64,000 nt of DNA from Tigriopus japonicus. Taxonomy: Eukaryota > Arthropoda > Copepoda > Harpacticoida > Harpacticidae. The stretch is from assembly GCA_010645155.1 (NCBI GenBank), contig CM021321.1, positions 7,968,390 through 8,032,389 of the forward strand, read 5' to 3'. The notes under the pieces are model-generated. The model worked only from the letters and a program-made list of their open reading frames with translations. It was not told the origin of the DNA and made no database searches. Of the stretch, positions 3,476-53,800 are shown piece by piece (positions within the stretch are counted from its first letter, which is position 1; each line of letters starts with the position of its first letter). Position numbers and translations under genes: made by a program.

Positions 3476-5184
3476 TTATTTTTCTTTTGTGGACTTTCCT
3501 CTTTCTCTAGGATTTCTGGGTACTCCTTTATGAATAAATTTTATATGGCTTGCAAGGTTTGCAACCGCAGCGCAACTGTAATCACATAAGTTACATCTGA
3601 AAAACAAATACAATTCGTCAACGACCATTTTCCATCAACCCTATCACAAATCAATACTCACTTATGTGGTTTCTCTCCTGTGTGGATCCTATTGTGTTGA
3701 TCTAAGACAAATTTTTTTTTGAACTGTTTCCCACAAGTTGTGCAAGTAAATCTGGCTGGTTGATGAATGCTTATGTGACTGATGTATTTTTTTCGATTGC
3801 CACATCTCTTCCCGCAATCTGAACACTTGAACTTATCGGTCTTTAAGTGAACGACATTCATGTGAGCTTCCAACTTGTCGTCAGTGGGAAAAGTCTTCTC
3901 ACATTTGTCGCACATGCGCTCAGGTCCATGGTGTTCCTTTGTATGATATCGAAATGCGGTCTGGTTTCCACAAACTTTTCCACATTGATCACAAACGATA
4001 TTTGTTCTCGGCTCACTATCCGGCATTCTAGGTTTTCGCAAAATGCAATCAGGTACGATTTTTTCAGTCTCAACGATAGGGTCAACAAGAAGAGAATCTT
4101 CATATTCAAGTACAATTTCAGAGTCAGAATGACATATGTCTACGTGAAAGGTCAAATGCGACTTCAATCGTGCTTCAAAATCGCACTGATCACATTGTAG
4201 AAAACAAGATGTTTTCTCGTGATTTTGCAGCTCATCTTGGGTTTTGAAAGTTCGCCAACATAATAAACAGAAGTTAACTAATGGAATGAGATCTCCTTTG
4301 GCGTCCACCATAAACTTGGTTTTGTGACATGACTGAATATGATGAATCAACTCATTTGAGTTCTTGGTAATACTGATACGCTTCCGGCAATTAGGACACG
4401 TCAATTCCTCGTTTTCCGGATGAGCCATCGATGAATGTTTGGTTAGCGCTGATGCCGAATCAAACTTATCTGGACAATGGTTGCATTTGAACTCTCCAAA
4501 TTGATGGTGATACATTTGATGAATGCCCATGAATCGTTGAGCCACTTTTTTGGGACAAAACTGACATTTAACTCGATCGCTTTCTTCCATCCTTAACTCT
4601 GCTCCAATTTTGCTTAATTTCTTGAGTTCCAAGGGGTGTTTCCGCGGTTTCAAAGCCATACTAGTGTCAAGAATCTCATTGATATCAATTGGAGAGTCCG
4701 GAAATTCATCAATGGGATCAGTCTCCTCGGCCTTAATGTGACTGTTACTAGAAACACTGCCCTCAGTGACTTCCATTTCTTCACCCTGTTCCAATTTTTT
4801 ACGAGTCCGGCATTTCTGACACACATTAGAATCCTCAGATGAAGGAACAAGCCCTAAACAATCTTCAGCAAAAACGCAAGTAAGCGGGAAACCATCATCC
4901 AATGGTTTCATTCCGACACACGGAACCCCTCGATCAAAGAGGTGTCCGCATTTAGCGATAATCTCGGGATAGCTTTGAACGAATCCACTTTCGCGGGTTC
5001 GACCCCAAATCCGCCAAAGATATTGATGAGTTACTGAGTGATACAAGAGTGAAACGCCAAAGTAGGGCTCGAAATTGAACTGAAAATCGCTCTCCACTTT
5101 GAGAAATAAGCGCCATTGTCCCAAGGTGACTCGGGTGAATTTCAGGGGTTTGAGGCCACTATTGGGTGGTTCCGGAGGGTCCAT
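3476..5184 (-). CDS. C2H2 zinc-finger protein ZF1 (two exons, 547 aa)
   Basis: Probable nuclear DNA-binding protein; target unknown. Exon 1 is 5184-3662 and exon 2 is 3596-3476, joined across a 65 bp GT-AG intron (3661-3597) in phase 2. Residues about 11-127 form the shared N-terminal domain (EPYFGVSLLYHSVTHQY, a GRT block, PCVG, then FPLTCVFAEDC and a CxxC). An acidic linker follows, then about ten C2H2 or C2HC fingers from residue 207. The intron falls after TGEKPHK, and exon 2 supplies the last finger (CNLCDY to HIKFIH) and a basic tail. The ATG at 5184 is chosen because it precedes the conserved domain. ZF1 lies 25 kb from its four tandem paralogs and is the most divergent: it has FGVSL for FALxL and RIWGRT for RVLGRT. 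The splice join is inferred from frame and from the identical layout in all five genes. Confidence 0.9.
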
Positions 5185-10629: not shown

Positions 10630-10786
10630 ATGGCTAAAGTGGAAGTGTCGCTCAAAGCCTCTCGAGCTGAGGTTCGGATAGCTCTGCAACGATTGGAGCG
10701 AGCTCATAGGCGTGCTAACCGCTTAGTGAGATCTGCCAAAGAAAATCAAACGAAAGAAGCGATTGCAATAGCAGAGGCTGAATTAC
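10630..10786 (+). CDS. Gag-like N-terminal fragment, cut by assembly gap
   Basis: From the ATG at 10630 the frame reads MAKVEVSLKASRAEVRIALQ and continues as a strongly charged, helix-prone segment up to the run of N at 10787. Together with the LTR-like segment and primer-site-like motif just upstream, it is probably the start of a retrotransposon gag gene. I cannot assign a family from 52 residues. The in-frame ATG at 10603 is an alternative start. What follows the gap at 11037 shows no continuing frame. Confidence 0.4.
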
Positions 10787-11036
10787 NNNNNNNNNNNNNN
10801 NNNNNNNNNNNNNNNNNNNNNNNNNNNNNNNNNNNNNNNNNNNNNNNNNNNNNNNNNNNNNNNNNNNNNNNNNNNNNNNNNNNNNNNNNNNNNNNNNNNN
10901 NNNNNNNNNNNNNNNNNNNNNNNNNNNNNNNNNNNNNNNNNNNNNNNNNNNNNNNNNNNNNNNNNNNNNNNNNNNNNNNNNNNNNNNNNNNNNNNNNNNN
11001 NNNNNNNNNNNNNNNNNNNNNNNNNNNNNNNNNNNN
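10787..11036. other. Assembly gap of 250 N
   Basis: A run of exactly 250 undetermined bases, a size that may be a placeholder. It lies within the retroelement nested in element E, so it probably reflects a repeat that could not be assembled. Confidence 0.99.
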
Positions 11037-11889
11037 ATGTTGAAGGCTTTTTTGTTTAATAATTTGAATGCAATCTCCTGCCTTCAACTTTGAAATTTTT
11101 AATGGCTCCACAAGGTCTTTGAATGTTTCAGTTTTTACCAAATACATAATAGCATTTGCAGATCAAACATTTCTATATTAATAGAATCAAAGAAAAGTGT
11201 TGTGGTAAAAAAGCATCAAAAAGTTACAAAAAAGTCTTTAATGCAAAATCATCCTATTTGAATAAAATTGAAAGAATTTGCCAAGTATTCACCCCTGAAC
11301 TACAATTAAGTGCGTAGATATCAGCCCACTTGACACCAAACTGATTTAACGATAAAGTTTTCGTTATAACCCATTTGATGACGCAGTTTTTTCTGCATTT
11401 GACTCTTGGCATGATTGTGACTTTTTGCATTAATCTCCTTTTGTAAACATTTTAGCATATTTGGTTCATTTTGGGATACTCTACTGTGCAAAGAGCATTC
11501 ATTAATTTGCTCCAATTTTCCTGCAATATTTTGCTTAAAAAATCAAGAAATACTTATTTTTTCCTGGAAAATGCCAAAATGTTAAAAAGTCAAGGCAAAA
11601 TGTGGAAATATTAATAAATTATATTATATTTAAAAGAATATCTTCTGGGCCCTTCTGGTTAAAATAGTGATGGTATTTCCAAATTAGGCCAAAATAACAA
11701 AATAAGCAAATTTAAATCGGAATAAGCAAAAAATTTCTGATTAATGTCGGATTGAGCTTCAAATTTTCGGATTTTTTCGGATTAGCGCCCAATTTTCGGA
11801 TTTTTTCGGATTGGGCGCTAAATTTTCGGATTCGAAATTCGTTCGGATTGGGCAGCAAATTTTCGGATTCGTTCGGATTGGGCAAAACA

Positions 11890-16303: not shown

Positions 16304-19300
16304 ATGAGTTTCAAGAAAAGGGCGTTTTCAATTCCGGACACTTTGGGTGAAGAATTACATGGTCATCGACCCAAAAGCAGGGTAAGACGAGTACTGCATT
16401 GATATTTCAACAATCGACTAACAGTTTTAGATTGGGGGGAAGGTTTTGGTATTACTGGAAGGTGCTAACAATACAAGGGATTAATTAACGAAATCCAATT
16501 TAAATCATTGGTATTCTGCCCATTAAATCAATGGATCTCTTTAAAGTAACATCGCTTTATAATAACGAGCATTCAAGTGAAAACTAGAATAGAAAAATTA
16601 AGGGGTGAAAGAAAGGAAAATCTGTGGAACAGGTGCGTTTTGCATTGGGTATTTCTCGAAGGACCAAGATTATGTAGTATTGAATTATCGAACCTTAAAA
16701 AAATTACAAAAAATGTATCAGTATACTTAGTGTTTACATGAGTTTATTGATTATATATCATTTAAGCTTATTTTGATGCAGAAAAATCTTTTCTGAGGTC
16801 GAGGCAAATTCAATTTGAAAAACTCTACAGATTAACGTAATGTTTTCACTTAATTTCAATTAAAGTGGTATCTAATTGTGCTCTCAATATGATTTGACTT
16901 AGTTTTAACAAGCCAGCAAATTTGATGGGGTTTCAGGTGGATGAATTTAATTTGCCGTTTATAATTTTTTGAGTCTGGTAAACACCTTATTGAGTTTGGG
17001 AATTTCCATGCTAACTTGATAGCCCATTTTGAGTTTCGTCCCTCAGGCTAAAAGGTCAGGCTTAAGATTTTTAATTTGATAAAGATAAAACATAAATAAC
17101 ATGGGTTTTTAGATACTTTTGATACAAACAAAGGAGGCCTTTGTTAATTGACCTGATGACGCGTACTCTTTGACCATTTACGGCTTACCAGAGATTGAGA
17201 TGGAGCTTTTACAAGTTACAATATTGCTGGGCACGATGTAGTCCAGTCAAATCTGATAACAGATATCTTTTAATTCTGTTTTAATGTTTTTTTTTTAAAT
17301 TTTCGACCAATAAATCTCACCTTTTCACCGCTAGGATTTTCGAAACCTTTCTCTGTTCCCACAGTAATACCAATGCAATGCTGAGGCCTAGGGTTTGATA
17401 AATTTTAAAATGGAAGGTCCATTTTGTCTAACATTACCTTTGTTTTTTTAAATAAGGTATGATAATACCACTGTTTTTACACGCTTTTAGGTTTGTATAA
17501 CATCGGGAACGTCTTGTAAACTACAAAAAATATGTTTCTGTCTTTATTTTTAAGGTTGAGCTACATATTCACTTGGATGGTGCAATCCGTCATGAGACAA
17601 TCTGGGAGTTACTCAAATCCAAAAACATTCCTCTTCCTGGCAACGGATCCCTGACAACTTTGAAAAAGAATCTTAGTGTGAGGAAGCCAAAAGATTTGTG
17701 TCATTTTCTTGAAGGGTTCACGACATTTTTCCCCATTTATATGTAAGTGTAATAAAAATCTTCACTAACTACGAGCAGCCGCAATTTTGGGTAATTTGCC
17801 ATTTTTTACATTCTTTTCATGTAATGTAGTGGAAACCTGGAAGTGATTAAGAGAATTGCTTTGGAATTTTGTGAAGATGAGGCTACTCATGGAGTGGCTT
17901 ATGTGGAGGCAAGGTTTTCTCCGCATCTGATGCTTTGTCCTAAATCACCCGAAGTAACAACCAAGGACATAATCAAAGCTGTCTTGGAAGGATTTAAAGA
18001 AGGAGAAGCTAAGTATTGCATCAAGGTATTTCAAGATTTACTTTGACCGAATTGAAAGAAACCGGTTTCATCCGAAGATAATATTTACTCCTAGCTACAT
18101 CAAGAATAATTGAAGTTCTTTTCTACTTTCTTCTTTTTATTTCTGGGCGAATTGTTGGCACATTTCAATCCATTGTTAATAGTAGCCAAGCCGGGTTGGT
18201 CTTTGTCGTCGACATTGTCAAGCAATCATCCATGGATAGATTAATGGATTCGATTAGATCATAGATTTGGAGAATGTTTCTTTGTGCATAAACACGTTTT
18301 TGCATGATCCACTTTGAGAAAATTTGACAAAAATGTTTCAGAACTGCACAAGGAGAACGACACTTATAATATCAAAGCTAGACTCCGCTAGATTTTATTT
18401 TGTACTGGATAATATATTTAATTGCTTTTGACACACAGATGCCCTCGATAATATCAGTATTTTTTTACAGGCCAGACTGATCTTGTGTTGCATCAGAGGC
18501 CGTGCCGACGAATGCATGGAAGTTTTGAACTTGTGCGAGATGTTCAGAAATGAAGGAGTTGTGGGTATGGACATCGCTGGAGATGAAGCGTCCATTGCCG
18601 AATCTGGTAAGACCATGAGAATTGAAACCAGTTTGTTTTTTAACAAGGATTACGTTGCTTATACAAACCGTTGCAAGTATTACATTACGTTCTGGATGAT
18701 AGCATCGTACCTAATTGTAACGAAATCAATCAAACAAGGTTTACTTTTAGCTAAAAAGTATTGGGTCATTTTCGGAGCAATTCCTACAAATAACAAAAAA
18801 TAGAACTTTCTAGTTTCTATCTCTTAACAGTTCACTTTCGGTCTTGGAAGAAACACGGGAATCATTACATTTAACTCGAAATCTAGAGCTATTGAAAATC
18901 CATAGGTTCTGTGGACAAGGAAATTGCGGCATTCACTGAAGCCAAAAAGTTGGGGATCCATAGAACTGTTCATGCCGGAGAAGCAGCCCCCGCAAGTAGC
19001 GTAAAGGAGGTAAATCAAATATGCATTGTTTTAGTCAGCGTAAAAATGTCAAAGCATTTTAGGCCTTGGATGTCCTTCATGCCGAACGTATTGGTCATGG
19101 ATATCGAGTTTTGGAAGATCCGGCACTGTATAAAAGATGCTTGGAGGAGAAAGTTCACTTCGAATGCTGTCCCCATTCGTCCATTCTGACAGGGTCCGTT
19201 TCTTTGGAGCATGTAGTAAAACATCCGGTGGTTCAATTTGCCATTGATGAAGCCAACTTTTCCATCAATAGTGACGATCCTACGATCACAAACACATATC

Positions 19301-19520
19301 TGCCCGAAGAATACGATATCGTCCAATCTTGGGGCTTGACTGAAGCCCATTTAACAAGAGCGGTGAGTTTTGAATCTTGAACACAGCCAACGAAAAATGT
19401 CTCATCAATAACCTCTAATTACAGAACTTCAATGCTGCCAAAGCGTCATTTTTACCAGAAGATGAGAAAAAAGCTCTGATCAAGGACTTGAAACAAGCCT
19501 ATGGAGTGACCGAAGATTGA
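16304..19520 (+). CDS. ADA: Adenosine deaminase (seven exons, 365 aa)
   Basis: Zinc enzyme converting adenosine and deoxyadenosine to inosine and deoxyinosine in purine salvage; usually cytosolic. Exons: 16304-16381, 17555-17742, 17830-18025, 18471-18606, 18906-19009, 19063-19362, 19425-19520; all introns are GT-AG and every join keeps frame. The 365 residues compare with 363 in human ADA. All key motifs are present: VELHIHLDG (two zinc-binding histidines), AYVEARFSPH, DIAGDE, HRTVHAGE (zinc histidine and catalytic glutamate), RIGHGY (catalytic histidine) and SINSDDP (zinc and substrate aspartates). The C-terminus FNAAKASFLPEDEK also matches the family. The N-terminus before VELHIHLDG is about 15 residues longer than in human. 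Introns of 87, 53 and 62 bp sit beside one of 1.17 kb. It belongs to the classical ADA type rather than the secreted ADGF/CECR1 type, since neither a signal peptide nor the extra N-terminal domain is present. Confidence 0.96.
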
Positions 19521-27218: not shown

Positions 27219-28396
27219 TTAAGTGTCACTTTCGTGAGTTGGATCTTTAATAATGGTCCAATTTTGACCTCTTTCAGATCGAGCGTAATTGATGGCATAA
27301 AACTTATCCACTGTATAAGAGTTGGCAGCTATGACATGGCCTCCGGCTAAAATTGATGTCATGTATCCAAATGTTCCATAACTGCAAAGGCAAGAAAAGG
27401 CATAAGCCAAGGATTTGCAGCACCCAAACAAATATTGTTTTTGGAATGGAGAATATCTAATTACCTGAAAATTGAGTGATTGCAATGTGACAGCAAGGCA
27501 AAATCAAAGTGGACGGGATCAATTTTACCCATGTCCATCTTGGTAGAGAAGTAGACATCAGGAAACTTCGAAAATTTTGACTTGGACCATTTGGGGTCAT
27601 CTGTAGCCGAAACAAACACAACTGAAGGGCCAAATTTTTCTCTTACCATCTTCATGGCTTTATAGAAGTAATTTTCCGTTACAGCTTTCCCATTGTGTTT
27701 CTTGATATATCTGGCATAATCTGTCCTTCTGACATGAAGACCAACAAAAATGACATCGTCTAACTCTGGATGGCTCTTAAGAAAGTCTTCTTTCACACTT
27801 CGAAGGCCTTCTTGGACGTAATAGACAATCTTTGGGTTGAACTGGAAATCGTTCTGCTTTAGATCGTCAATGACTGGAATTAAATATGTATCCCGCAACC
27901 AATACTTTGGCAAGGAGATGATTGGGTCCTCCCATTCCTCCTTGAGGAACCCCGCTTTCACTTGCTCAGTTGTCACAAAGGGAAGATCCTTATCACTGCA
28001 CCCCATCTCAGAAAATGACGGGATGCTTAAGTTGGGGAACACTTCGGATAGATTCGTCTTCATTTCATCATTTAAGACCGGCTTGATTTGGAAGCCTTCA
28101 TGGTCTTTGATCACACCGTATAGGGCACCATACTCCATGACCACATTGGCCCATCGGCCACCAGGAAGGAGAGTCAGCACATGGCTACACTTTGGATAAG
28201 GTTCAAGAAAGTCCAGATTTTTGGAGTCTTCAGATCTTTTGCTTTGCAGGTAACCAGGTGAAGGACGAGGATCCAGTTCATGTATGCTTTGATAGGGAAT
28301 TGAAGGGTTCTGATTTACAGACCACCAACGCACGAAAAGCAGGAGTCCCAATACAATGAAAATGGTGTAAGAGGCTCGATAATTAATGAATGCCAT
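27219..28396 (-). CDS. GT11 galactoside alpha-1,2-fucosyltransferase (two coding exons, 364 aa)
   Basis: Predicted Golgi type II enzyme moving fucose from GDP-fucose to the 2-position of a terminal galactose. Exon 1 is 28396-27465 and exon 2 is 27381-27219, with an 83 bp GT-AG intron that splits a serine codon. Residues 11-23 are a membrane anchor after a short cytosolic N-terminus. LPGGRWANVVMEYGALYGV (78-95) corresponds to the family's GRxGNxxxxYAxL block. VGLHVRRTDY (218-227) is the GT11 HxRRxDY donor-binding motif. FVSATDDPKW and SHCNHSIF-S-YGTFGYMTSIL match the two C-terminal blocks. Several N-glycosylation sites are visible (NLS twice, NHS, NWT). Length suits the family. Immediately upstream, a splice acceptor (TTTCTTTTAG) shows that the 5' UTR starts in another exon. 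The acceptor substrate cannot be read from sequence. Confidence 0.9.
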
Positions 28397-28533
28397 TGTT
28401 GTGATATGCCGCCAAAGAAAGGTATTTGAAAACCTAAAAGAAACCAAGTAACATATTTTTGTTAGAATCATGTACATTCCAAAAGGAACATGCCCAAAGG
28501 TTGATCAAGTGAGCAATTTAAATTATACCGCCT

Positions 28534-30690: not shown

Positions 30691-32170
30691 TTAAACGTCA
30701 TTTTGTTGTGTTGCATTGTTGGCCTCAATCTTGAGAGACTTATTCTTCTTCCGCAATTTATAACGCGAGATCCCACCGTGGACAAACTTCTTATGAACAC
30801 TCAAATTGGCGCTTGCTCCAGTGCAAAAACCACAAATATCGCACCTAAAAAGATAAAAATGAGCTAGAAAATGGACAAATTTAATCCAAATCCCACGCCA
30901 TTTCATACTTGTAAGGTTTCTCTCCAGTGTGTGTCCGGAGATGAACTTTTAGGTTCTCCTTAGTCTTTAACTTTTTTCCACACATGGGACACAAGATCTT
31001 CGGGTCATCATGAACAGTCATATGTTTCCGGAGTCTGGTGCTATCCCCACATCTCAAGCCACAAATTTTACATCCATGCATATCCACTTCAGCATGATAC
31101 TTGTTATGATGATATTTCAGTTTGGTCCCAGTACTGAAGGTCTTGCCACATTCGGCACAAATCGAAGGCTCCTTGATAGGTTTTTCATGATCCGGTGCTA
31201 TATTATGGACTACATGTCGATGTTTGACTAAATCATTGGCGTCTTTAGGTAAAAAATCACATTGATCACACGTCCCAACACATCTCCGCATATGCCGCTT
31301 GACGTGAAGTTTATAATGGAATATCTCATCACAAATGTTACATTGATAAGTGAATTTGACTCCGGGACCACCAAGTTTAGGTGTAATTTTTATCTTCTGA
31401 CAAGTTCGCCAATGACTCAAAAACCTGATTGGTTCCAAACCAACACTAACTGATTCCTCACATTGAGGACATCTCAACGAAGTCACATTGGGATGGTTTG
31501 AAGTAGAATGATCAATAAATTCTTCTACAGTGTCAAATTGAGTTAAGCACTCTTCACAAGCAAAGAGTCTGTTTGGAACTTCTTCCTTCAATTCACATTG
31601 ATCCTCAAAGTCATCGCCAAACATCGAATCTGGAGGGGATGTTACCTCATCTTGTTCCAATTTCAAATCATCGTCACTCTCAAATGAACTTGATTTATCC
31701 TTGGCCTTATCTGATTTCTTGGCCTTTAATCGTCGAGATCGCATTTCAGCCGAGCAATTGGTACAAACATTGGCATTGTTTGCCATTGGAACTAAAACGG
31801 AGCATGTCTCTGAGAATTCGCAAGACAAAGGGAACTTTTTGTTTGCATGTGAAAGACCCACACATGGAACCCCCATTTGAAACAACTTGGAGGCTTCAAG
31901 AATCAATTCAGAGATACTACCTAATGTCCCAGATTGAAAGGTTCGACCTAAAACCCGAAACATGTACTGATGTGTATGGCTATGATAGAGTAATGTGAGG
32001 GCGAAATGAGGTTCGTCATTGATCTGTAGATCCGGATGTTCTTTCAGAATCAAAAGCCAATGTCCTAATGACACTTTGACCAAACCAAGGGTCTTCCATG
32101 GGTCTGATGAGAGGCTGAGAGATGTGTTGTCCTCGGAAGTGAGGCTGTTAGAAGGCTGAAGAAGAGACAT
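30691..32170 (-). CDS. C2H2 zinc-finger protein ZF2 (two exons, 471 aa)
   Basis: Probable nuclear DNA-binding protein. Exon 1 is 32170-30909, exon 2 is 30844-30691; the 64 bp intron has phase 2 and follows TGEKPYK. Residues about 28-139 are the shared N-terminal domain: VSLGHWLLILKEHPDL, NDEPHFALTLLYHSHTHQY, RVLGRT, PCVG, FPLSCEFSETC and a CxxC. A linker of lysine-rich then acidic character follows (141-200). About eight fingers start near residue 203; several early ones end in C rather than H (C2HC). Exon 2 supplies the last finger (CDICGFCTGASANLSVH) and a basic tail. ZF2 and ZF3 are the closest pair: both have LGLxKxSLGHW and a terminal HGGI[ST]R after the last finger. First of four genes in head-to-tail array. 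Confidence 0.92.
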
Positions 32171-32976
32171 GATGAGAAGAAGAGGCAGGTGTCAAACAAC
32201 ACTTAGAAGAAAGGATTTAATGAAGAATTTCATGCTTGACAATCATATTTTCAGACATGAGAATTCAGGCCTATCTCGTAAATGAATCAGGGTAGCTGTC
32301 TTTTAAACATGAAATAAATGGATGGATGACAATGGAGGAAATGCTAAATCAATAAAACATAATTATGATGATAGAAAAAAGGCTTAGAAAAGAAGTACTT
32401 GATTATGATCGTTTATAAATATTGTCAAGATCCTTAGTTGGTAGATATTTGAAAGCTTGATGTTACCCTATGGACTCGTAATTGAACTTTACGTTTAGAA
32501 ATAATGTTATTTTTAGTTTGTTTCTTCAACAATACATACTCGAAGAATTTAAATTTCGGCATTTGCAAATTGAATCAAGATCAAGCATTTTTTTTCTTCT
32601 GCACAATGAACTGAATTAGCACTCTCTCCGAATACTTTTGGGTCACCATGACTGAGAAACTCATACAATCGGTGTTGCTAAAAATGTAGATAAGTAGCCA
32701 TACATCAGAAATTGAGGATTTGGCACTAAGACGGGGAAAAAGATACTTGAACATGTCCTAGCAAATTTAACTTCTTTAACAATATCAAATAATCGTCTGA
32801 TCAAAAACCTCTTTATTGCTTTCGCTCCATGAACTGGCATAAAATGTAAATTTTTTAACAGTGTTTATTTTATCGATAAAATAACGAGATAAATGCAGGC
32901 AATAACTGCTTTTATGAATCAAAACCGAAATAGCAATTGTATTCTAGACTGATTCAATGCGCACCCAAACATTTGG
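32171..32976. other. Spacer between ZF2 and ZF3
   Basis: About 0.8 kb of AT-rich sequence. It must hold the ZF2 promoter or 5' UTR and the 3' UTR of ZF3. No motif or transposon was identified. Confidence 0.6.
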
Positions 32977-34664
32977 TTACATGGAATCAGTTACTTCTTC
33001 ATTGACATTGGTTGATTTTTTCCCTCTTCGCCTCGTGATACCACCATGGACATATTTTTTATGATCCGTTAGATTTCCACAAGCACTGGCCCGGTAATCA
33101 CACAAATTGCATCTAGATTAAAGGAAAAAGCGGAATCATTAGCTTTATTGAAGATTTAAAGACAGGTTATTCATGCTTACTTGAAAGGCTTTTCTCCGGT
33201 GTGAGTTCGAAGATGGACATTAAGGTTTTGTTTGGTTTTGACCTTCTTTCCACACGTTGGACACAGAATCTTGGGTGCCTCATGAACCGTCATATGTTCT
33301 CCTAGGCGTGTTTTGGATCCACATCGGAATCCACAGATCTTACAAGCATGCTTATCAAATTCAGCATGATACTTATTATGGTGAGTTTGCCATTTGGCCT
33401 TGGACGAGAAACTTTTGCCACATTCTTCACAAACGCATGGCACGTTAGCTCTTCGTTTTTTACTCGGTGAGAAATTTGACGTACTTGTCTGTGATGGATT
33501 TGTGGTGAAGTCCCTCTTGTCATTCGGATTGGGTAAAGTTTGCTCACCGCAACTATCCCATTTGGCATCACACAAGAACACGTGGTTCTTTATCACATTT
33601 TGATGGCGAAAAGTCTTGGCACAGGCATTACACTCATACGTAAATTTGGAACGAGACCCTTCGATATGACGAATGGTTTTGTACCTCTGACAAGCTTGCC
33701 AATGGTCCACTAAACTCGAGGGATCAAGACCAATCGACACGTTCTTCTCACATTTTGGGCATCTTAGATGAGTGGCTCCCGGATGAATCAAGGAGTTATG
33801 ACTGGTTAGTTGAATGGGAGTTTTAAATGAAAATGAGCACTCTTGACACGCGAAAATCCCGGGTTCAGGAGGCGGTTCTTCTAAGGGTTTTTCTAGATTA
33901 TCGTCAATGTCGGGTGTAACAGTTGGGTTTTCAATAATATCGCCGATAATATCTTTGGTATCACTAAGGCGGTCGTCATACCCAAGAATTGGATCGACAT
34001 TGGACAGTGGAGGCTCCATTTTAATCTCCAGCTTATTTTCAACATAGGTTTCCAAATCAAAATCATCATCATAATCGTCTTCGTCTTGGTCTTCTTCATC
34101 CGTCTCAGTATAATTGGGAACATCTTGGAAACGAGTTCTTTGCCGATGGGATCTTCGCCGACGATCCTCCCGAACTTGAACTTCGGGCATCGCTTTAGGC
34201 TCATTTCTACTCATTATTCCTTGATTTGTGAGCTCTCCCCAACAACTAACACACACATTCGATCCTCCGGAATGTGGCACAACAATCGAGCAATCCCGGG
34301 AAAACTCACAAGATAACGGGAAATGTCGATCTGCCAATTTGAAGCCCACACAGGGTTTGCCATTTTGGAATAAATCAAAGGCCTTGATCATCAATTCGCC
34401 ATAATTGGTGACCTGGCCTTTGTAAAGAGTTCGACCCAGAACTCGAAATATGAATTGATGAGTTTGGGCATGGTAGAGCATGCTCAAAGCGAAATGGGGT
34501 TCATGGTTGATCATGAGATCGGGAAGTTCCTTAAGGAGCATGGTCCAATGTCCCAAAGATATTTTGGTCAATCCCAGAGCTTTCAATGGATCCATGGTGA
34601 GGCCATCGCGCTTGATGGGTGGGATTTGGACCGTATCTGATTTGGTTGGAGCTTCCAAGGCCAT
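32977..34664 (-). CDS. C2H2 zinc-finger protein ZF3 (two exons, 539 aa)
   Basis: Exon 1 is 34664-33181, exon 2 is 33112-32977; the 68 bp phase-2 intron follows TGEKPFK. Residues about 29-141 are the shared N-terminal domain (ISLGHWTMLLKELPDL, NHEPHFALSMLYHAQTHQF, RVLGRT, PCVG, FPLSCEFSRDC, CxxC). A long linker holds an arginine-rich patch (RRRRSHRQR) and a very acidic run (TDEEDQDEDDYDDDFD). Fingers start near residue 271. One finger present in ZF2 is degenerate here: the sequence KWDSCGEQTLPNPND has lost its first cysteine and both histidines. Exon 2 gives the final finger CNLCDYRASACGNLTDHKKY and a tail ending EEVTDSM. Nearest relative is ZF2. DNA target unknown. Confidence 0.92.
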
Positions 34665-35546
34665 GATATCGCCGGAGAATTGCGAGGTCTACTACGACCT
34701 TCTACACTTCACACGTACACTAAATCTAAAGAAAGGCTGACAAACAACACTCAAGTTCATAGAGGTGCTCAAGTTCAATCAGTGTTGCCATTTGGTCAAA
34801 CGTCAAAACTGAAATCAGTGTTGAGAGTTTTTTTTAGAACCAAAAGAAGGATAATGAAACACATTGGGATTTCCCTTGTGAGGTTGAATCATGCTAGATT
34901 CTAACGAAGTTGCCAGAAATTAAGCCTTGCTCATCTCTGGGTTCTTTTTTCCAAAAGCAATCTTTAAGAATGTAGCTTTGTGTTGCATGTGACTCTCTAT
35001 CAATTTGGGGCCCATTTGGAAACAATGTTCTCATAGAAGAATGAAGGAACTGCCACTACACAAGGGCTCTAAAACAAGAATCTCTTTACTAACATATTTA
35101 TTATTGTTTGTCAGCTGGTATTATGACAAAACTTCAACATTATGTGAGTGGGTTCATTTTCGAATATCAGGCCCTAGGAGAAGCTCTTCAATAAAGCAAC
35201 CAAATTCCCCAATCTGTGGGTTCTAATTGTCAAAAGATGTTCAAATCTATTTCAGTATTTGAGAAACGTTGACCTTTAAATGTACTCACACTGGCATCCT
35301 CTGCTTCATCAAACGTTCGAAGAACAGATTTTAGATTGAATAAACGAAACTAGACTGAGAAAAACAATCATTTCGTACCAATCGGCGTCTTGTATATTTT
35401 TGTTGTTTAGATTTCATTAATATTTTGAGCATCAATTGCAGTTACGTGATGTTCAATGCAACTCACGATTAGATTCTGGCTTTAACACCGTTATGCTATC
35501 TATGTTACTGCAAATTACATCATTTTCTTCATATAATGGCTAACAT
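34665..35546. other. Spacer between ZF3 and ZF4
   Basis: About 0.9 kb. Near 34780 a short stretch reads AGTGTTGCCATTTGG and later ATCAGTGTTGAGA, similar to termini of other repeats, but no complete element was found. Confidence 0.5.
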
Positions 35547-37394
35547 TCAAGCCATTTGATTAAACGAATAGCTGTTTTTCCAATGAGATTCGGGTTGAGA
35601 TGTATCCGGAAGAATCGAAGGTGGAATGGGAACGGCAGTTTCGGCGGAAACAGCCCCATTCACATTGTTTTTCACTCCTTTCCGGTTCTTAAGTTTCATG
35701 CCTTGATGAACTGACTTTTTATGATTGGTCACATTGGCAGAGTTCGTGCTGGCATATCCACAAAATTCGCACCTAAAAATAGATTCATAACCGAATAAAA
35801 GATTTCAAATCAATTTTGTTACGGTTCAATCTTACTTGTAAGGCTTTTCACCGGTGTGGATACGTTTATGAATGGTCAAGTTGTGTCGATGTCGGAAGAG
35901 TTTGCCACAATATTGGCATTTATGCGTGGGATCCAAGTGACTTCTCATATGATCTCGGAGCTCTGTGGTGTCTCCTGCTCGATAATTACACACTTTACAG
36001 ATGTAAGCATCAGACTCGAGATGAGCTCGGTTCTTATGTCTTTTTAATACTGCTGTACTCGTGAAAGATTTGTCACATTTGTCGCACATGAAGTTCAGAG
36101 ACTTCTCATGGATGGCCTTGACATGGCGCTCCAAAGTCTCGGGATCTCGAAGCTCTTTGCCGCATAATTCGCACACATAATTGGCTGCTAATCCTTGATC
36201 TTGCAAATGTCTTCGTTCGTGAGTCTCTAGGTTTCGTTTGTATTTGGTCTTAAAATCACAGGTTTGACAATGAAGCCAAGCATCGTTGTGAGTTCGTTGA
36301 TGGAGCTTCAGCAAATAGCTCGTCTCGAACTCTTTGCCACATTGTTCACATTGATGAATCTGTTCACGTTGCTTCAATTTGGTCTTTCTCACCTGTTCCT
36401 TCACTTTGCTTTTGATACAAGCTTCATAATGGGCCACTAATCCCTCTTGTTCAGAGGCCACGTCTTCAAGGCAAGAAGGACACCTTAAAGTTTTGACCTC
36501 AGGATGATGCTCATGGGTATGAGCGCAGATATCCTTGGCAAATTGGAAGCCTTCAAGGCAAATCTGGCAATGGAACTCACCCACAAAGTGGATGTTTCGC
36601 AAATGTTGAGCTGACGAAGCTTGTTTTAAGGTTTTGAGACAAATCTTGCAAGTCCAAGGACGCCGATCATAAGCTACTTTCGCCTTATGTCGTTTACTAG
36701 AAGTACTATGGTCATGATCAGAAGTATGAAGACCATAATCATCGGCGTTTTCAGAAGCTACTAAAGCACTGGTTTTCACATTTTCCCCATAAGAAAGTCC
36801 GAACGAAGAATCGTCATCCTCTTCCTCAAATTCTTTGAATTCATCCGACATAAAAGTGTGATCTTCGTGACTGAAGTCTTCATTCAAAGAGACTCGTTTG
36901 ACTTTCCTGGGCCTGCCTCGTTTTTTCTGGACTTTTTGCCCTCCATTTGATACTTCTGAACATTTCTGGCATTGAAGGCTCCTCATTTTTGAATCGTTTG
37001 TCTTGACCACAATTTGACAAGAGGGTGAGAATTGGCAAGATAAGGGGAAATCCTGATCCCTCTCCAATTTCCAACCTAAGCAAGGCACAGAATCCTCAAA
37101 GAGCTCTTGGCATTTGGATCCAAAATCGTCTCGAGATTCTAAGAATCCGGATGAAATTGTTCGGCCCAAAACTCGCCAAACGAATTGAAGATTACTAGGA
37201 TTGAATAGAAGATTGAGCGCAAAATAGGGCTCATTGTCGTGAATGAAAAGATCACATTGGCGAGGGAAGACAAGAATCCAAGAACCTATGCTACAATGGG
37301 CAAGATTTTGGGTCATGAGTGTTTCTAATTCAGAGGGAACGAGTTGAACTGAAGGATCCTCCGTTTTAATGGGAGTATTGTCTTGCAAATCCAT
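35547..37394 (-). CDS. C2H2 zinc-finger protein ZF4 with AT-hook (two exons, 594 aa)
   Basis: Exon 1 is 37394-35836, exon 2 is 35772-35547; the 63 bp phase-2 intron follows TGEKPYK. Residues about 31-145 are the shared N-terminal domain (SIGSWILVF, NEPYFALNLLF, RVLGRT, PCLG, FPLSCQFSPSC, CxxC). Residues 157-167, KKRGRPRKVKR, form a classic AT-hook with RGRP core, which binds the minor groove of AT-rich DNA; no other family member in the window has it. An acidic linker precedes about ten fingers (from about residue 245). Exon 2 supplies CEFCGYASTNSANVTNHKKS and the longest tail of the family, rich in Pro, Ser and Asn, ending SYSFNQMA. ZF4 pairs with ZF5 by sequence. Likely nuclear; targets unknown. 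Confidence 0.92.
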
Positions 37395-38420
37395 ATTGGA
37401 GTGTGTTTGAGGTTCTAATAAGGCTCCTTAGCGTGCTGTTTTCTTCATGGTTGAGATGCTTCTCACATGCTCCATGGAGATTCAGGAAGATTTCCTTGTC
37501 TTGTTCATTGCCTTGGTTTCATTCTACTCTATTTTTGGCTGTGTTTTGATTTGGTAGCAGGGCTGCCAAATTTGACATTCTTTTAGGTCAAAGTGATAAG
37601 ATTGCGATCCTGAGGTGAGTGAGCTTTCCGTCAGGTTTTGATAGATAGATGTGGGGCGAATTTCCTTGGTAAAGATCTTTAATCTAATCATAAGTTTTTA
37701 ACCATGTAATTAAGACATGCTACATTGAGAATTTCATTGGTATTTCAGCTTGCCATGTTGATGCAGAAGAAGGGATAAAGGAGGGGTGGAGAATTTCAAA
37801 TAAAAATTTAACATGATGTATTTTCTATTGTAAGTTCAAAGTTTTTGCCTCCCAAGTCAAATGTGAATGATAGGGGCTACGTGATTCTCCTTATTTACGT
37901 AATAAAATGTAAGGTTGGGTTAAAACATTAAAGTTCAGGTAAAGATAGCATGGGTTAAACAAAAGCAAATTGAACCACATTAGTCCCTTGCACACTGGTT
38001 TTTCAAGTGAGTTAGAAAAGAAATATGAATTGAGTAATAAGAATCCAGCTTTTAACTATGAGTCAAGTGTGATGCTCGGCCAAAGCCTTAGCCTTTCAAT
38101 GAGTGTCTGAGACCTAAGCAGAACACTATTTCAGGACTTGTTAATGGAGCCTACCCTCAAGCCTCTCAGGAGTCAGGGCCGAATCATTCATTCATCGGCA
38201 ATTGTGTAGCAATAGACTAAATAAGATAATTAAGACACTTTTTCCTCTCTGAACAATTGTAATATTGCTTCCCGTTGTTAAGAGCTGATTCTAATAACAT
38301 TTATTAGGTTAAATTAGACAATACCTAATGCATTCAGTTGCATTGGTACAGTACAAAAAAGTACTAAAAAAGCAAAATGGCACAGAGTTTGAGCTTCACA
38401 TATTCTCATAATGGAAACCT
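37395..38420. other. Spacer between ZF4 and ZF5
   Basis: About 1 kb without a recognisable gene or complete transposon. GCAGGGCTGCCAAATTTG near 37558 resembles a hAT-type terminus, but no partner end was found. Confidence 0.5.
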
Positions 38421-40097
38421 TCAGTCAGGAGACTTCTTTGCATTTTGATGGATGAACTTCTTATGATTGAGAAGGTTAGCACTGTTATTGCTGGCATAAT
38501 CACACATTTCGCACCTGAAACAGAAAGAAAGTGTGAACATGTGGTCCTCATTTTAATAGTGTGCCACGTTGACCTACTTAAAAGGTTTTTCTCCTGTATG
38601 AATGCGTTCATGAATCCGAAGAGATCCCTTGGACTTGAGCATCTTTCCACAATGAAGGCACTTAAAAGTGGGCTCCCCATGGCATCGGTAGTGGGTCTTT
38701 AATTCTATCTTATTCCCCGCTCGATAAGAGCACTTCTTACAAGCAAACTCCTCAGATTCCCCATGAACTCGATTCTTATGGCGTCTTAGAATATCTCGAC
38801 TAGTGAACTTTTTTTCGCATTTGTCGCATGCAAACTGCAACGATTTTTCATGAACTAATTGAATGTGAGTCGCTAAGCACTTCTGAGTCCGTAATTCCTT
38901 CCCACAAAGTTGACAAATGCATTTTTCTAACAGACCCTGGTCGAGTAAATGTTTTTTTATGTGCTTCTCTAGACAAACTTTCCACTTGGTTTTGTAGTCA
39001 CACATGTGACAATGGAAATTGGCGGCATCACTGTGGACTTTCATGTGTTTGGTGAGGTTGGACGCCGATGATAAAGTCTTTCCACATTCATCACATTGAT
39101 ATAATCTACCTTCAGCCTTGACCTTTATCAATTGCTTCTTGGCTTGATCGCTGGATCGTCGCCGAACACATTGTTTATAATGATCTTCCAAAGCATCTTT
39201 ATCAGTCTCAATTACAATGTCCTCCTCGCAAGACGGGCAAGACAAACGGTCTATTTTCGGATGACTTTCTTGATAATGTTGAGTGAGATCCTTGGCATAT
39301 TTGAACTCTTGAAAACAAATCAAACACTTGAAATGCCCTTCGAAATGAACGTGTTTCAAATGTTTGTAAGAGTTGCCAAATGCCAAAGACTTTTGGCAAA
39401 TGGGACAAGACCATGGACGGGCTTCTGTGACTCGATCTCTTTTGAGGATGCCGTAATCTTGACTAGATTTTGATTTCGAGGATTTCTTCTTGACAAGTGA
39501 TTCGGCCTCTAAAGTGGAGGGAGAGCTTTCCACATCTTCTTTGGTAAGCTCATCTTTGACTTCAAAATCGTTCTCAATATCTTCTGGTGGTTTTGTCTCA
39601 AGGAGTTTATTAAAAGACACCCTTCCGGATCCACCATTATTCTGACATTGAGGACAGATTCGTAATTCGAATTTTAAGGGAGCATTACTCAAAAATGTCT
39701 GCTGGCAAAGTTGAGAAAACGTGCAAGAAAATGGGAAATTGGAATGTGTCGGATTTAATCCCAAGCAAGCTACTTTATTTTTGAAATGGTCTTCACTTTT
39801 TACCAACAACTCTGAAAACGAATGAACAACACCTTTTTCTATGGTTTTTCCTAGAACTCTGCAGACATATTGATTAGATTGAGGTTGATAGAGGAGTGTT
39901 AGAGCAAAATAGGGTTCGTCGTTGTTTATGAAGAAGTCGCAAGTTTCTCGAATAATGAGAATCCAAGAACCGACAGAAACATACGTCAGTTTCAGATCCT
40001 TGAGCAAAGATAATTCAGCTTCTAGCAAGCCGCAATGTTGGTTCAAGAGCGTGGTCTGAACCTCTTCTTTTGGAACTGTCGGGTCTGGCATGGTCAT
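38421..40097 (-). CDS. C2H2 zinc-finger protein ZF5 (two exons, 537 aa)
   Basis: Exon 1 is 40097-38578, exon 2 is 38514-38421; the 63 bp phase-2 intron follows TGEKPFK. Residues about 38-151 are the shared N-terminal domain (VSVGSWILIIRETCDF, NDEPYFALTLLYQPQSNQY, RVLGKT, ACLG, FPFSCTFSQLC, CxxC). The linker has a basic serine-rich stretch (KKKSSKSKSSQ). About ten fingers start near residue 229. Exon 2 carries the last finger CEMCDYASNNSANLLNHKKF and a short tail ending KKSPD. ZF5 is closest to ZF4: finger order and the CDYAS/CGYAS terminal finger agree. The first ATG (MTMPDP) is used, with a second in-frame ATG two codons later. Outermost gene of the tandem array. Confidence 0.92.
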
Positions 40098-47800: not shown

Positions 47801-50800
47801 CACAAAAAGAGCTAGTTGCTATAAAACGTTGACATTTGAGCCGTCACTCTATCTCCAGTTGGAAGTCAATTTAAAGCTCCAAGAGTGGCAAAAACTTGAA
47901 CTCTCGAACCTCCGGGGACAGCTCACATTTCAATAACTTGAGACATTAATGGATCAAGAGAATTGAACTTTTTGATGTCAATTTATCGAAGGTGTTGAAA
48001 GACCCGAGAATTTAGAGCCAGCAGGCGTAGCTACTAAGGCTAAAACGCCAAGTAGAAATGGACACCCGAGTTTGAGAGACTCTGAACCGGGTTCAAAAGA
48101 CCCTGAGAGACAAATCCTAGGAAAAGCTATGATCCAGATTTGCTGTGACCTGTTCCAGGCTCTTCAGTGCTCGTTGTGCCAAGTGCCAGGACCTCTTCTC
48201 ACCCGATGATTTTGTGATGAGAGCCAAGAACCAGATCTTCCATTTGAAGTGCTTCCAGTGTTTGTGCTGCGGTAAACAACTCGTTCAGGGTGACGAGTTC
48301 GCCCTGAAAAATGACAAGATCTTCTGCAAACATTGCGCTGACTTAGAGGCTTTTCACGAGCGATTTGAGGAACTCCCCGAGAGAAATAACAATAAGAGAG
48401 ATAACTACAAACAATCCAATCATTACCACAAGCTTTTCGCGGAAATGGCCTCAAAGTCCCACCAGGCCCAAGAGTGCTCATCAAGCACCACGAGTGAAGG
48501 GTTGAAGTCCTTCAAGGAGGAATCGGGGGAGGAAAAGGAAATGTTTGACTTTGACGAGGATGATGAAGACGACTCATCAGACATGAAATTCAATGGACGC
48601 GGTAAGTTCGAAAGAATGTTTGAAGAGCGAGGCTAAGTCATGCCCTACTTGTTTAATGCCTAAACCTAAAACTCACAATCTAGTTTCGTTCTTGACGACA
48701 TGCATTGTAGCCTTGTTAACTGAACTGTTTGAGTGTTAACCATAGCACGGGCTTTCTTTGGTAAGGAAGTGGGATATTGTGACAGGTTCTTCTCCACCGA
48801 CATCTGCTCTTTTGACTCTTTGTAGTGGGTCAGCATCCATCTCGAATGAATATTCCTTGTTGTGACTTGTTCTTGACAGTCTTGAAAAGTTTTCCGAAAA
48901 TGTATGGCAAGCCAAGATCGCTCTATGAGTCAACGTACTCTCACTCACACCCAATTGTAGCAGTAGCACACCAGGTGCCATTGGAGAATTCAATTTCGAG
49001 GTCCAGAAATGGAGACAAGAATGCCGAGGAGGACACTTCTCTCGATGGAACTGATCAGGAACAAAGATTACTCATGAGACCAGAACTGAGCACAAGTGAC
49101 ATTCCCATTAACAATCCCCAAACTTGAGTAGCTCAAGCTTAACCGAAAGCCTTGCATTCAAACCTCTGTGCACAATGTTTGAAGGTCACTGTGGATAATT
49201 GTTTTGACATGGGAAAGAATAACAACTGCCACCCTGGCCTCAATTGAGGGTGTAGTCGGCTCCAAATGGAAGAAGTCACTTAAAATATTTTAAAAGCACA
49301 TGCGACTGCCTGCCTGGCCCTTCGTGCATGCATTGAACGAGATGAAGCTTAGAGTTAGTGATATGGATCAAGGAATTCTTGGCTAGGGTCTTCAATTAAT
49401 TGCTGAGCTGTCCTGGCCTCACCTGTGTCATTAGATCTAGAATCGTACATCCAGCCAAGATCATTTCATGATCACGATGAAGTACACTCAAATTCATAAT
49501 GGCCTCATCATGGTGACCTAACGTCGATGTTAAATATCTCACTGTCTCCCATCAATCACTTGTCTTCCAACACACATCAGCTATCAATTCCTCATTTTTT
49601 CTGCCAAAAATGACGAGCTTCTTGCCCTCTGGGGAAAACAAAGGCACACAACATGTTTCTTAGCTGCCTATATGATCTCTTGTCAATCAACTGAATCCTC
49701 CCCACACCTCGTATTTATTTACCTTATTTTACTTCAGTGTTTTCCCCCATTTGTTCTCCATGTGTTTTGACTTGAAAAGTGTGGACAATTGAACAACACT
49801 CTGATGCACGTCTTGACCGGAAGTCGTTGACAAAACGGGACTCAGGATCATTGACTTGTGCCTTATTGGGTATTAAAGATAGTCATCTTTCCTTCCAACC
49901 GTTTTATGCTGGAAACTTGGAAGAGAAGAAGTCTGCATGCTTCCTTCACTCATTTCAATCAAGATCCTGCCAAATATCTTGGGAGTTTGAGTGGAGAGAG
50001 TGGGGGGATGTGTTTTCTCTTGGGAGCGTTGCAATATTTGTGGCTACAAAATTGAGCCCATCTCTTGCCGTATGACATGCTGACAATTGATTGATCATGT
50101 TTGATTAATGAAATATTACGGTTTGACGGGAGAGGGAAAACTTCCTTTGTTATTTGTTTTTCTCCAAGGAATTGGAGACGGCATCGAGATGGTTGGTTTC
50201 GCCATTAATCTCCATTCAAAATTGCCCCTTTCTTTCTTTTTTCATCATCGGAATTCAGACTCAATATTCTAATGACATGCTAATCAGAAACGCCAAAGAT
50301 GAGGGATTTTCCCCACGTAATTCTTCTCCATAAGTAAACAAAGATTTCAAATTAAGCCCAATCTGTTTGCTTTGTTCTTTGACTGGGTGTGAGTCTCTCT
50401 TCCTTCATTTTGTCCAAGAGCCCTAAAGGTTGGATATCTAGAACACAAAAGTTGTCGGGAGGAAACCCATTCCAATAACTCATAGAAAACAAGCCCAACC
50501 TTTTCACAAACAGACATAGACTATAATTGCTCGAGTGTCGAGCATTTGTTAGAAATGTGAGTCAATCACTTGATGACTCCATCATGTTTATCAACTACAT
50601 ATTCCCTAGGGAGTGCTACTGAAGCATGAGAATTTCAAATGGGAAGAAGCAGAGCATAATGAGAAGGAGAACCTCTGTCACCATCTCTCGCTCAAATCAA
50701 CTCCTCCAATCAGTCACAGATGTGCAATGTTTTCTCTTCCCTTTCAGATATGCAGAGATCTAGCTTAGATGAGAGAATCGAAGGCACCCCTGATAGCCAC

Positions 50801-53800
50801 TCATCTTCAGATGGAACCCTGAAATCTCCAGCATTGGGAGACGACCAGCAGCACCAGGTCCGGCGCAGTCGTGCTGGCCGGGTGCGCACTGTGCTGACCG
50901 AAAAGCAGCTGAACATGCTAAAAAGTTGCTACCAAGTGAATAAGCGCCCGGACGCGCTGGTCAAGGAGCAACTGGTTGAGCTAACCGGTTTATCCCCACG
51001 CGTGGTCCGTGTCTGGTTCCAGAATAAGCGTTGCAAAGACAAAAAGAAGTTGGCGCTTCTTCAAGAGAAGGTGAGTTCAGGGTGACTCTCTTGCGTAGGA
51101 TTGCATGCCATGGTGGGTGTGAATGTTGGTATTAAGAGTGGCTTTTGGTCATCACGACTTATTTGATCTTCGCGTGTGAGGTTGTTATAAATCTGTCAGG
51201 TGGAAAAAGAGCGAGTGGTTGGCGAGTTCGTCACCTAATAATTAGTGCTTTACCTGTTTTGTGGAGCGAGCTCTCAGGACATCCGGTTCCATTTCCGTAG
51301 CGGAGGGTAATCTAGAGACCAACTTTTTCCATGGAACATGACACACTATCATTATAGATCATGCAAGACATCGTCTAACCTCTTCGCCTCCTAGTTTGCT
51401 TTTCTCGTTCACTCCATTCTCCCTCTCCTTTTGAGTCCTTAATGGTGGGTAAGGTTTTTCTTTCCTTCCTCTAACTCTATTAGAGTCCGGCATGCATTCG
51501 TCCACTTCGTCGCAAGTGTCGAAGCGACAAAATTCCACCTCATTTGAATTTCCCCCACCTCGAGAGTCTCTTTGGCATCTTTCCTGCGTCGTTCGCAGAA
51601 TAAAGCAGCTCCAGGGAAAGAGCATCATGTTGATTCGAGAATGCGTGTGATTCAATTCACATGTTATGATTTCTATCTCCTTCCCCTCCTATTGCCCCCT
51701 GAAGTCTCCCAGGATCTGGCTAGAACACTTTATATATACGAACAAAGACCATCCCAACGAATGAATGGTTCTGTCTCCCGACGTCTTTCTTCATGAATCC
51801 ATTTTTCAGGTACTTTTGAACCCACCCAAAAAAAACGTTATTACAGAAACTGCAATACTTTGTTATAGAAAACTTTAGTTGTAAGGAGCAGGGAGCAGGC
51901 AGAGATCTCTTTTTGCTTCACGCCATTATGGCCCCTCACTTTTGGCAACTGCTGCTTCTAGTACTCTCAAGTGGATGTCCATCTTCGTATAAATAAACGG
52001 GGGGAGGTTCAGAGGAGCCAGGAAAGAAAGAAAGAAATAGAGAGATGTGCCTGTGGGGGGTTGAGTGGAACCCAAGTGAGTGTGTGACATCATACATTGA
52101 TGCTAACTTAGACGCCACTGGGATGCTCTTAAAGGTCTACTACGTACGATCCACCCGAAAAAAAAGGGAGAACTGGATCCAGCGATTTCGACTTCAAGCG
52201 ACTTTCCTCGACAATCAGAACCATGACACGACCATTTTTTGCATTTTCGATGAATCGATCACCGTGAAATATTGCAAGGCCAAGTTGTTCTCCGACGTGA
52301 AAGCTTTCAATGCATACGAGCGACTTAATGCATCTGTTTTTGGAATCGGATTCGAAACCCTTTATCAAATTGGAGTGACGTGGGGAAAAGCGAAAATAAA
52401 GTGGTGCGCCCATTACGAGTAAATAATGATCTGCGCGGGCAAGATGAAGGAGAGAGAAAAACTCTCTTGGTAATCCCAATACCATTACGTCGTTCATACA
52501 TCCAGCCAGATCATTTCCAGCAAATGGAATTATTAGATTTGAGCCGCAGGGAAAAGGGGTGGTGACTATAACAACCAAGAGTTTCTACTGGAAGGACTAT
52601 GAAGGGTAGAAGAAACGGGGATAATCCAGGAAGCCATTAATAAGAAATGAATTATGATCAGTTTCCTTGGATGTGATGGTGGCTTGATTGTGGCCCGGTT
52701 ATTTGAACACCATAAACATGCAAACTTTCGCCCAGAAAAAATGAGAAAGGGAAAAGATCCATCAACGATGAAAACTTGCCGAAGATGGGTCTTCCCTAGT
52801 GAACTCAATTGTGTGAGAAGAACAGTGACCTCTATGGCTACTAGGGATATTTGTATGAAATACATCCCATTTACTCAGTCATCATAAATATGTACTATAG
52901 GGAATGGGAGTCACAAAAAGGATCTGCTGAACTCTATTTTTACCCGCTAATACACGTACTATTTTCATTTGACACACTTGTTATTCTGAATCGTCCAATT
53001 GTTTGCTCCTTACCTTAGACAATGTGTCAGACTTTTACCTTCTGTTCCTCTTTTATTAAAGAATTATCTGAGGCTTGTACTGTCATCCTTAATTTTAAGA
53101 AGGAGTACTCAATGTGATAATTTGCAATGCCATTCTGACATGGCCTAATAATATGAAAAGCGCATTGTCAATGGCTAATAAGTCAGTTATTGAGAGCATT
53201 TAAAAGTATAGTCCAAGCATAGTAATACCCAGTAAAAATAACCATGCTTGAGTAATGTTCAGTACATAAGTCGCGTTTTTGCGATTGAAACACGAAGCTT
53301 ATGTAGTGAAACCGTACTAGAGCATGGTTATTTCTACCGCGTTTTACTCTGCTTCCAAATGCCCTCAACAACTGATCTCTAGTACCCGTATCGAACACTG
53401 CCGGCCAATAGTGCGAATGCTAGAGAGTGATCAAATTCCATTGAACCCTTCATCAATTTCACGAGAGATGAGCTCAATATTCACACCTTCTCAGCGGGTG
53501 GCTCGAAATTTCTATAAACAAGATCGCGCTTTGCGGTCTCATTTATGTTCCCTCAACGACTCAAGCACACCCTTCTCTAGCTGAAACTTCAATGGAGTTT
53601 GTCCATTTTTGAGAGGGGGAAAAAGAGACAGCAGATCAATGCTGGGAATGGCCAAATTGGAGAACAGGCTAAATTTGGAATATCATCTTGGTTGTTTACA
53701 TTCCCAGATCCATTCGGCCGTATCATCGAGACGAATTTGTTGTTTTAATAGTAAGAACGACGCTCACCGACATGTCCTCAATTGGAGCATTCTCAGGCAC

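Follow-up and report, generated by a model that had tools for sequence, protein, structure and literature searches.

In tetrapods and insects, large protein families are known in which a single N-terminal module (KRAB and ZAD, respectively) is joined to zinc-finger arrays that vary. The window analysed here, a stretch of 64,000 nucleotides of the Tigriopus japonicus genome (C7:7968390-8032389), contains five zinc-finger genes with a common N-terminal pattern, and raises the question whether this copepod uses one of the known modules or a different one. We consider it fairly probable that the pattern represents an undescribed domain, a beta meander plus helix with a Cys-rich tail, which precedes C2H2 arrays at 95 or more loci, is stabilised by zinc, and pairs proteins or binds a cofactor.

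The five zinc-finger genes of the window

Five open reading frames on the minus strand carry the N-terminal pattern, at the positions given by the sequence-only reading, whose ends for ZF1 (3476) and ZF2 (30691) equal the predicted stops (Table 1). Two exons are predicted for each of the five genes, with the last finger in exon 2; the predicted intron of 63-68 bp is in phase 2 and lies inside a Lys codon after HTGEKPx. Stop positions were derived from the start of exon 2 and the peptide length, and the stop of ZF5 was confirmed on the sequence. For ZF5, the sequence predicted from exon 2 is similar to the C-terminal end of P0002, a T. californicus protein. PF00096 fingers score 46.5-73.5 bits in all five proteins (curated cut-off 25.2). 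A genome search started from residues 1-166 of ZF5 returned 67 matches, among them the other four window domains at E values of 8e-26 to 4e-20, which excludes chance likeness and confirms that the five proteins share one N-terminal domain. The patterned domain is thus real, but it extends over about 125 residues when the final CxxC is included, rather than the ∼110 proposed before.

Table 1. Zinc-finger genes of the window and their N-terminal domains, in window positions (-, minus strand)
Feature	Position	Strand	Basis
ZF1 ORF	3661-5184	-	ORF list
ZF2 ORF	30884-32170	-	ORF list
ZF3 ORF	33180-34664	-	ORF list
ZF4 ORF	35835-37394	-	ORF list
ZF5 ORF	38577-40097	-	ORF list
ZF1 gene	3476..5184; exon 1 5184-3662, intron 65 bp, exon 2 from 3596, stop ends 3476	-	ORF + predicted splice
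ZF2 gene	30691..32170; exon 1 32170-30909, intron 64 bp, exon 2 from 30844, stop ends 30691	-	ORF + predicted splice
ZF3 gene	32977..34664; exon 1 34664-33181, intron 68 bp, exon 2 from 33112, stop ends 32977	-	ORF + predicted splice
ZF4 gene	35547..37394; exon 1 37394-35836, intron 63 bp, exon 2 from 35772, stop ends 35547	-	ORF + predicted splice
ZF5 gene	38421..40097; exon 1 40097-38578, intron 63 bp, exon 2 from 38514, stop ends 38421	-	ORF + predicted splice
N-terminal domain of ZF1 (L011)	4789..5163	-	family alignment A4
N-terminal domain of ZF2 (L004)	31733..32107	-	family alignment A4
N-terminal domain of ZF3 (L005)	34221..34595	-	family alignment A4
N-terminal domain of ZF4 (L002)	36939..37328	-	family alignment A4
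N-terminal domain of ZF5 (L001)	39624..40013	-	first row of alignment A2; lead sequence, first structure model, pLDDT 91

The window also contains adenosine deaminase-like exons (18432-18800 and 19063-19377) and an open reading frame of glycosyl transferase family 11 (fucosyltransferase-like; 27464-28504), which adjoins the zinc-finger cluster. A LIM-domain exon (48133-48633) and a homeodomain exon (50663-51082), both on the plus strand, probably belong to one LIM-homeobox gene. Unknown bases at about 10782-11040 are read as X in the ORF list.

Family size, clusters and change among copies

In the 194.85 Mb genome of T. japonicus, 95 loci or more begin with the domain. The first 166 residues of ZF5 matched 67 places at E≤0.001, and queries with five other members, chosen from divergent branches, yielded 46, 50, 39, 69, and 50 matches, which overlap and were taken together as 95 distinct loci. 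A few partial matches (e.g. C4:5786689, C4:5836251, and C123:36343) were left out of the 95, and the counts are lower bounds. A profile built from 67 loci detects the domain in all 95, including 28 outside the building set. The local expansion is larger than the five genes had suggested, as these belong to a cluster of 24 loci within 137 kb of C7 (7.871-8.008 Mb). Other clusters comprise 28 loci on C4 near 5.74-5.88 Mb, 10 on C54, and 8 on C4 near 0.3 Mb, while 25 of the 95 loci lie elsewhere. In a tree of 93 domains the cluster label changes 16 times, compared to a mean of 51.7 after shuffling; this tree rests on few columns, with 37 of 90 inner branches well supported and 28 drawn open. The grouping of cluster members in the tree fits the expectation from tandem duplication.

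Downstream of the domain, C2H2 fingers were detected by regular expression in 94 of the 95 loci, the remaining one (L083) being unreadable (N). At least two such fingers are in the same open frame in 90 loci, within the fetched stretch. L012 has one finger, L008 and L091 have in-frame fingers beyond a stop, and in L030 the fingers are in another frame.

Several single copies deserve mention. Within the largest cluster (C4, 5.74-5.88 Mb; loci among L048-L085), the frames are mostly about 500-730 aa long, and that of L083 is longer only through reading across N. Stops in the domain or shortly after it occur in L008, L091, and C4:5786689, which are probably decaying members of the family. The match of L050 (C4:1264323) is inside an open frame of 2699 aa that is partly N-masked. 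A second domain copy in L020, hinted at by a five-sequence profile, was not confirmed: the family profile detects a single domain there, and the other stretch is read as C2H2 sequence. L021, where one TGA had been flagged, was not counted as a broken copy, with the domain in an open frame and a Met ahead of it; the TGA probably sits upstream of the start.

Protein searches revealed 20 distinct relatives, 10 from T. californicus and 10 'lgn' proteins. The closest T. californicus proteins show 83% and 84% identity over the domain, and another one 94% over 531 aa. Over the compared stretch, the 'lgn' proteins match loci of the present genome at 98-100% identity and are thus probably from the same species. 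The locus tags in T. californicus are partly consecutive (TCAL_12902 to 12904), which suggests that clusters exist there too. No relative outside Tigriopus was found in these protein searches, which require shared 5-residue words. Among copepod genomes the search covered this one, and the lineage of the family is so far Tigriopus only. One family relative, L018, is seen as a spliced transcript: the protein P0014, from a contig of 1952 bases, is identical to its exon 1 over 542 residues and then continues into the next exon, located about 840 bp away in the genome, and an intron of this length is too long for the contig. P0001 ends at the intron, which is what unspliced sequence would give, and was thus not counted as expression of the window genes.

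The domain is under purifying selection, with dN/dS values of 0.10-0.35 in all of 24 close paralog pairs, which overlap and were picked for domain identity. In the fingers, DNA-contact residues changed in 73 of 204 cases and other positions in 114 of 408, counted in 12 non-overlapping pairs over the 12 residues that separate the Cys from the His ligands (p=0.05 by Fisher and p=0.06 by Wilcoxon test; 7 pairs positive, 4 zero, 1 negative). This excess is weak. A stronger first contrast (164/408 vs 412/1810), based on the 24 overlapping pairs and with Cys/His ligands included in the latter count, shrank with non-overlapping pairs and was given up. In several recent pairs (L007/L010, L071/L076, and L056/L079) dS is far lower in the domain than in the fingers and linker, e.g. 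0.09 in the domain of L007/L010 compared to 0.48 and 0.81. This contrast points to exchange of the domain among copies, or to gene conversion, but L075/L078 show the opposite contrast, and the choice of pairs by domain identity biases the comparison.

A clustered expansion with one conserved N-terminal module would also be expected if the domain, like KRAB, brought in a single common co-repressor and the family served to silence mobile elements or satellites, and a passage of PMC7655104 likens ZAD to KRAB proteins. We regard such a silencing function as conceivable but doubtful, since the domain has no KRAB match and the excess of change at DNA-contact residues is weak.

Conserved residues, predicted fold and named domains

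Four residues are invariant in all 93 aligned domains, namely W, P, C1 (in PCxG), and C3. G85 and both cysteines of the final CxxC, C4 and C5, are present in 92 domains each, and the exception for C4/C5, L067, has a CxxC farther along. G61 and P104 (91/93), D26 (90/93), F77 (88/93), and R52 (86/93) follow. Of the pattern described from the window, W, P, C1, and C3 hold family-wide, while Q[YF] and, in part, R[VI][LW]G[RK]T are only local (R in 86/93, G in 76/93). The distance from C1 to C3 is 13-35 residues and that from C3 to C4 11-30 residues (92/93 domains). The four late cysteines had been proposed to bind zinc, but C2 is Cys in only 29 domains and Arg in 39, whereas the others are near-invariant, and therefore C1, C3, C4, and C5 are the likelier candidates for a zinc site. 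By eye, C2 is mostly Arg in the branch of the C4 cluster at 5.74-5.88 Mb. The conserved residues look structural and no conserved catalytic-looking set was seen, which suggests an interaction module as the best guess.

AlphaFold predicts a confident compact fold, consisting of an antiparallel beta meander and one helix, followed by the Cys-rich tail. Two confident models agree in this (pLDDT 91.0 and 87.2; pTM 0.83 and 0.80). Foldseek searches with the domain models gave no structure match at E≤0.001. Likeness to small folds of beta meander plus helix, namely the TriTu immunity protein, the C-terminal part of OspA, and polo box 3 of PLK4 (identity 2-16%), stays under the level at which the structure comparison counts a match as more than a common arrangement, and the Cys tail is hardly covered. 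By sequence, nothing convincing was found in the PDB. The best profile match (E 0.0012), a partial one of 43 profile positions to a stretch of PUF3, was rejected because PUF repeats are helical and the matching stretch of the domain is mostly predicted beta; single-sequence matches at E 0.059-0.18 were discarded likewise.

Small beta-sheet modules can bind nucleic acid, and the domain sits in DNA-binding proteins, where it might extend the DNA-binding surface. We consider such a function improbable, since, of the positions conserved across the family (W, D, P, R, Gly, Phe, Cys), R52 alone is basic, and no fold match with a nucleic-acid binder reached significance. It is quite unlikely, too, that the domain was acquired horizontally or through fusion of a mobile element to a zinc-finger gene: arthropod fusions of this type, one of them with a C2H2 region in mosquitoes, are described in passages of PMC13389597, but the Tigriopus case mentioned there is a different, chitin-related gene, viral structures gave no match at E≤0.001, and the relatives found are confined to T. 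californicus and the near-identical 'lgn' sequences.

In line with the sequence-only reading, which recognised none of these, the 93 domains show no ZAD, KRAB, SCAN, BTB or SET in Pfam at E≤0.01; two families reached this level with one member each (best E 0.0071). The five full window proteins have no KRAB, SCAN, BTB or SET/PR match in Pfam-A at E≤10, and with 67 domains no named family for the N-terminus appeared among the 25 of 34 weak families listed. In the genome ZAD (PF07776) gave one weak match, compared to 153 for BTB as positive control, in a search that is blind to introns and could miss split copies. Thus, ZAD is not the expanded module in this genome. The sole ZAD-like stretch found, L068 (C8:5653479-5653703), lies in a 132-aa open frame, matches zf-AD at 3.9e-06 with 27.5 bits, just below the 28-bit cut-off, and resembles the solved protein Serendipity delta (E 0.012), which we take to be a Drosophila ZAD protein.

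KRAB zinc-finger proteins of tetrapods are similar in architecture and expansion pattern, but the domain has no KRAB match and, unlike KRAB, contains conserved Cys. BTB-ZF and PRDM (PR/SET) proteins carry an N-terminal interaction domain ahead of their C2H2 fingers as well, but differ in that no BTB or SET match occurs in the 93 domains; BTB is present elsewhere in the genome. ZAD C2H2 proteins of insects resemble this family in having a conserved N-terminal module that contains Cys, followed by a linker and a C2H2 array, and in a lineage-specific expansion in clusters. The position N-terminal to the array, a ZAD trait, is found here too. In contrast to the four Cys of ZAD, arranged in two CxxC pairs, the domain has a single CxxC at its end, after a beta-rich region with W and P. 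It comprises ∼125 residues compared to 75 profile positions in ZAD; its own predicted fold is a beta meander with helix. A highly diverged ZAD is therefore very improbable despite the same position, conserved Cys and type of expansion, as this Cys arrangement differs, PF07776 has no match in 93 domains at E≤0.01, and hhalign of alignment A4 with L068 aligned 10 columns at a probability of 0.4% (a weak test due to the single-sequence target). The missing Pfam match, the one weak ZAD, and the lack of profile likeness to L068 indicate, at the level of sequence, that ZAD's place is taken by a domain that is not ZAD.

These results support the earlier suggestion of a lineage counterpart of ZAD, with Tigriopus as the lineage so far: the Pfam scans gave no significant family, structure searches gave no match at E≤0.001, and 95 loci of this one genome carry the domain. 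In the literature, covered by titles and abstract openings and mostly excluding subscription papers, no paper turned up that treats an N-terminal domain in the zinc-finger proteins of copepods.

Proposed role of the domain

Most likely, the domain is a zinc-stabilised protein-interaction module, for which we infer dimerisation or binding of a cofactor. The Cys-rich tail would hold one structural zinc via C1, C3, C4, and C5, and the module would link each protein to a further copy of itself, to sister proteins or to a cofactor they have in common, while the finger array would select the DNA site. Tandem duplication, with the module retained and the fingers diverging, could then lead to many putative regulators with one partner mechanism. 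A shared mechanism of this kind has been proposed for the ZAD proteins of insects and the KRAB proteins of mammals.

With regard to its origin, we lean slightly towards an undescribed family that represents an independent invention of the module-plus-finger design, by which Tigriopus, and perhaps harpacticoids at large, would have replaced the arthropod ZAD repertoire with a zinc-stabilised module of its own, present at 95 loci or more. A crustacean case with ZAD nearly absent would help to separate the general traits of such expansions from module-specific ones, and the conserved module, tandem clusters, and diverging fingers are candidates for general traits. Since hybrid breakdown between populations is studied in Tigriopus as a laboratory model, a growing regulator family is directly testable there. 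Where insects use ZAD and mammals KRAB, this lineage seems to have built a large regulator family of its own.
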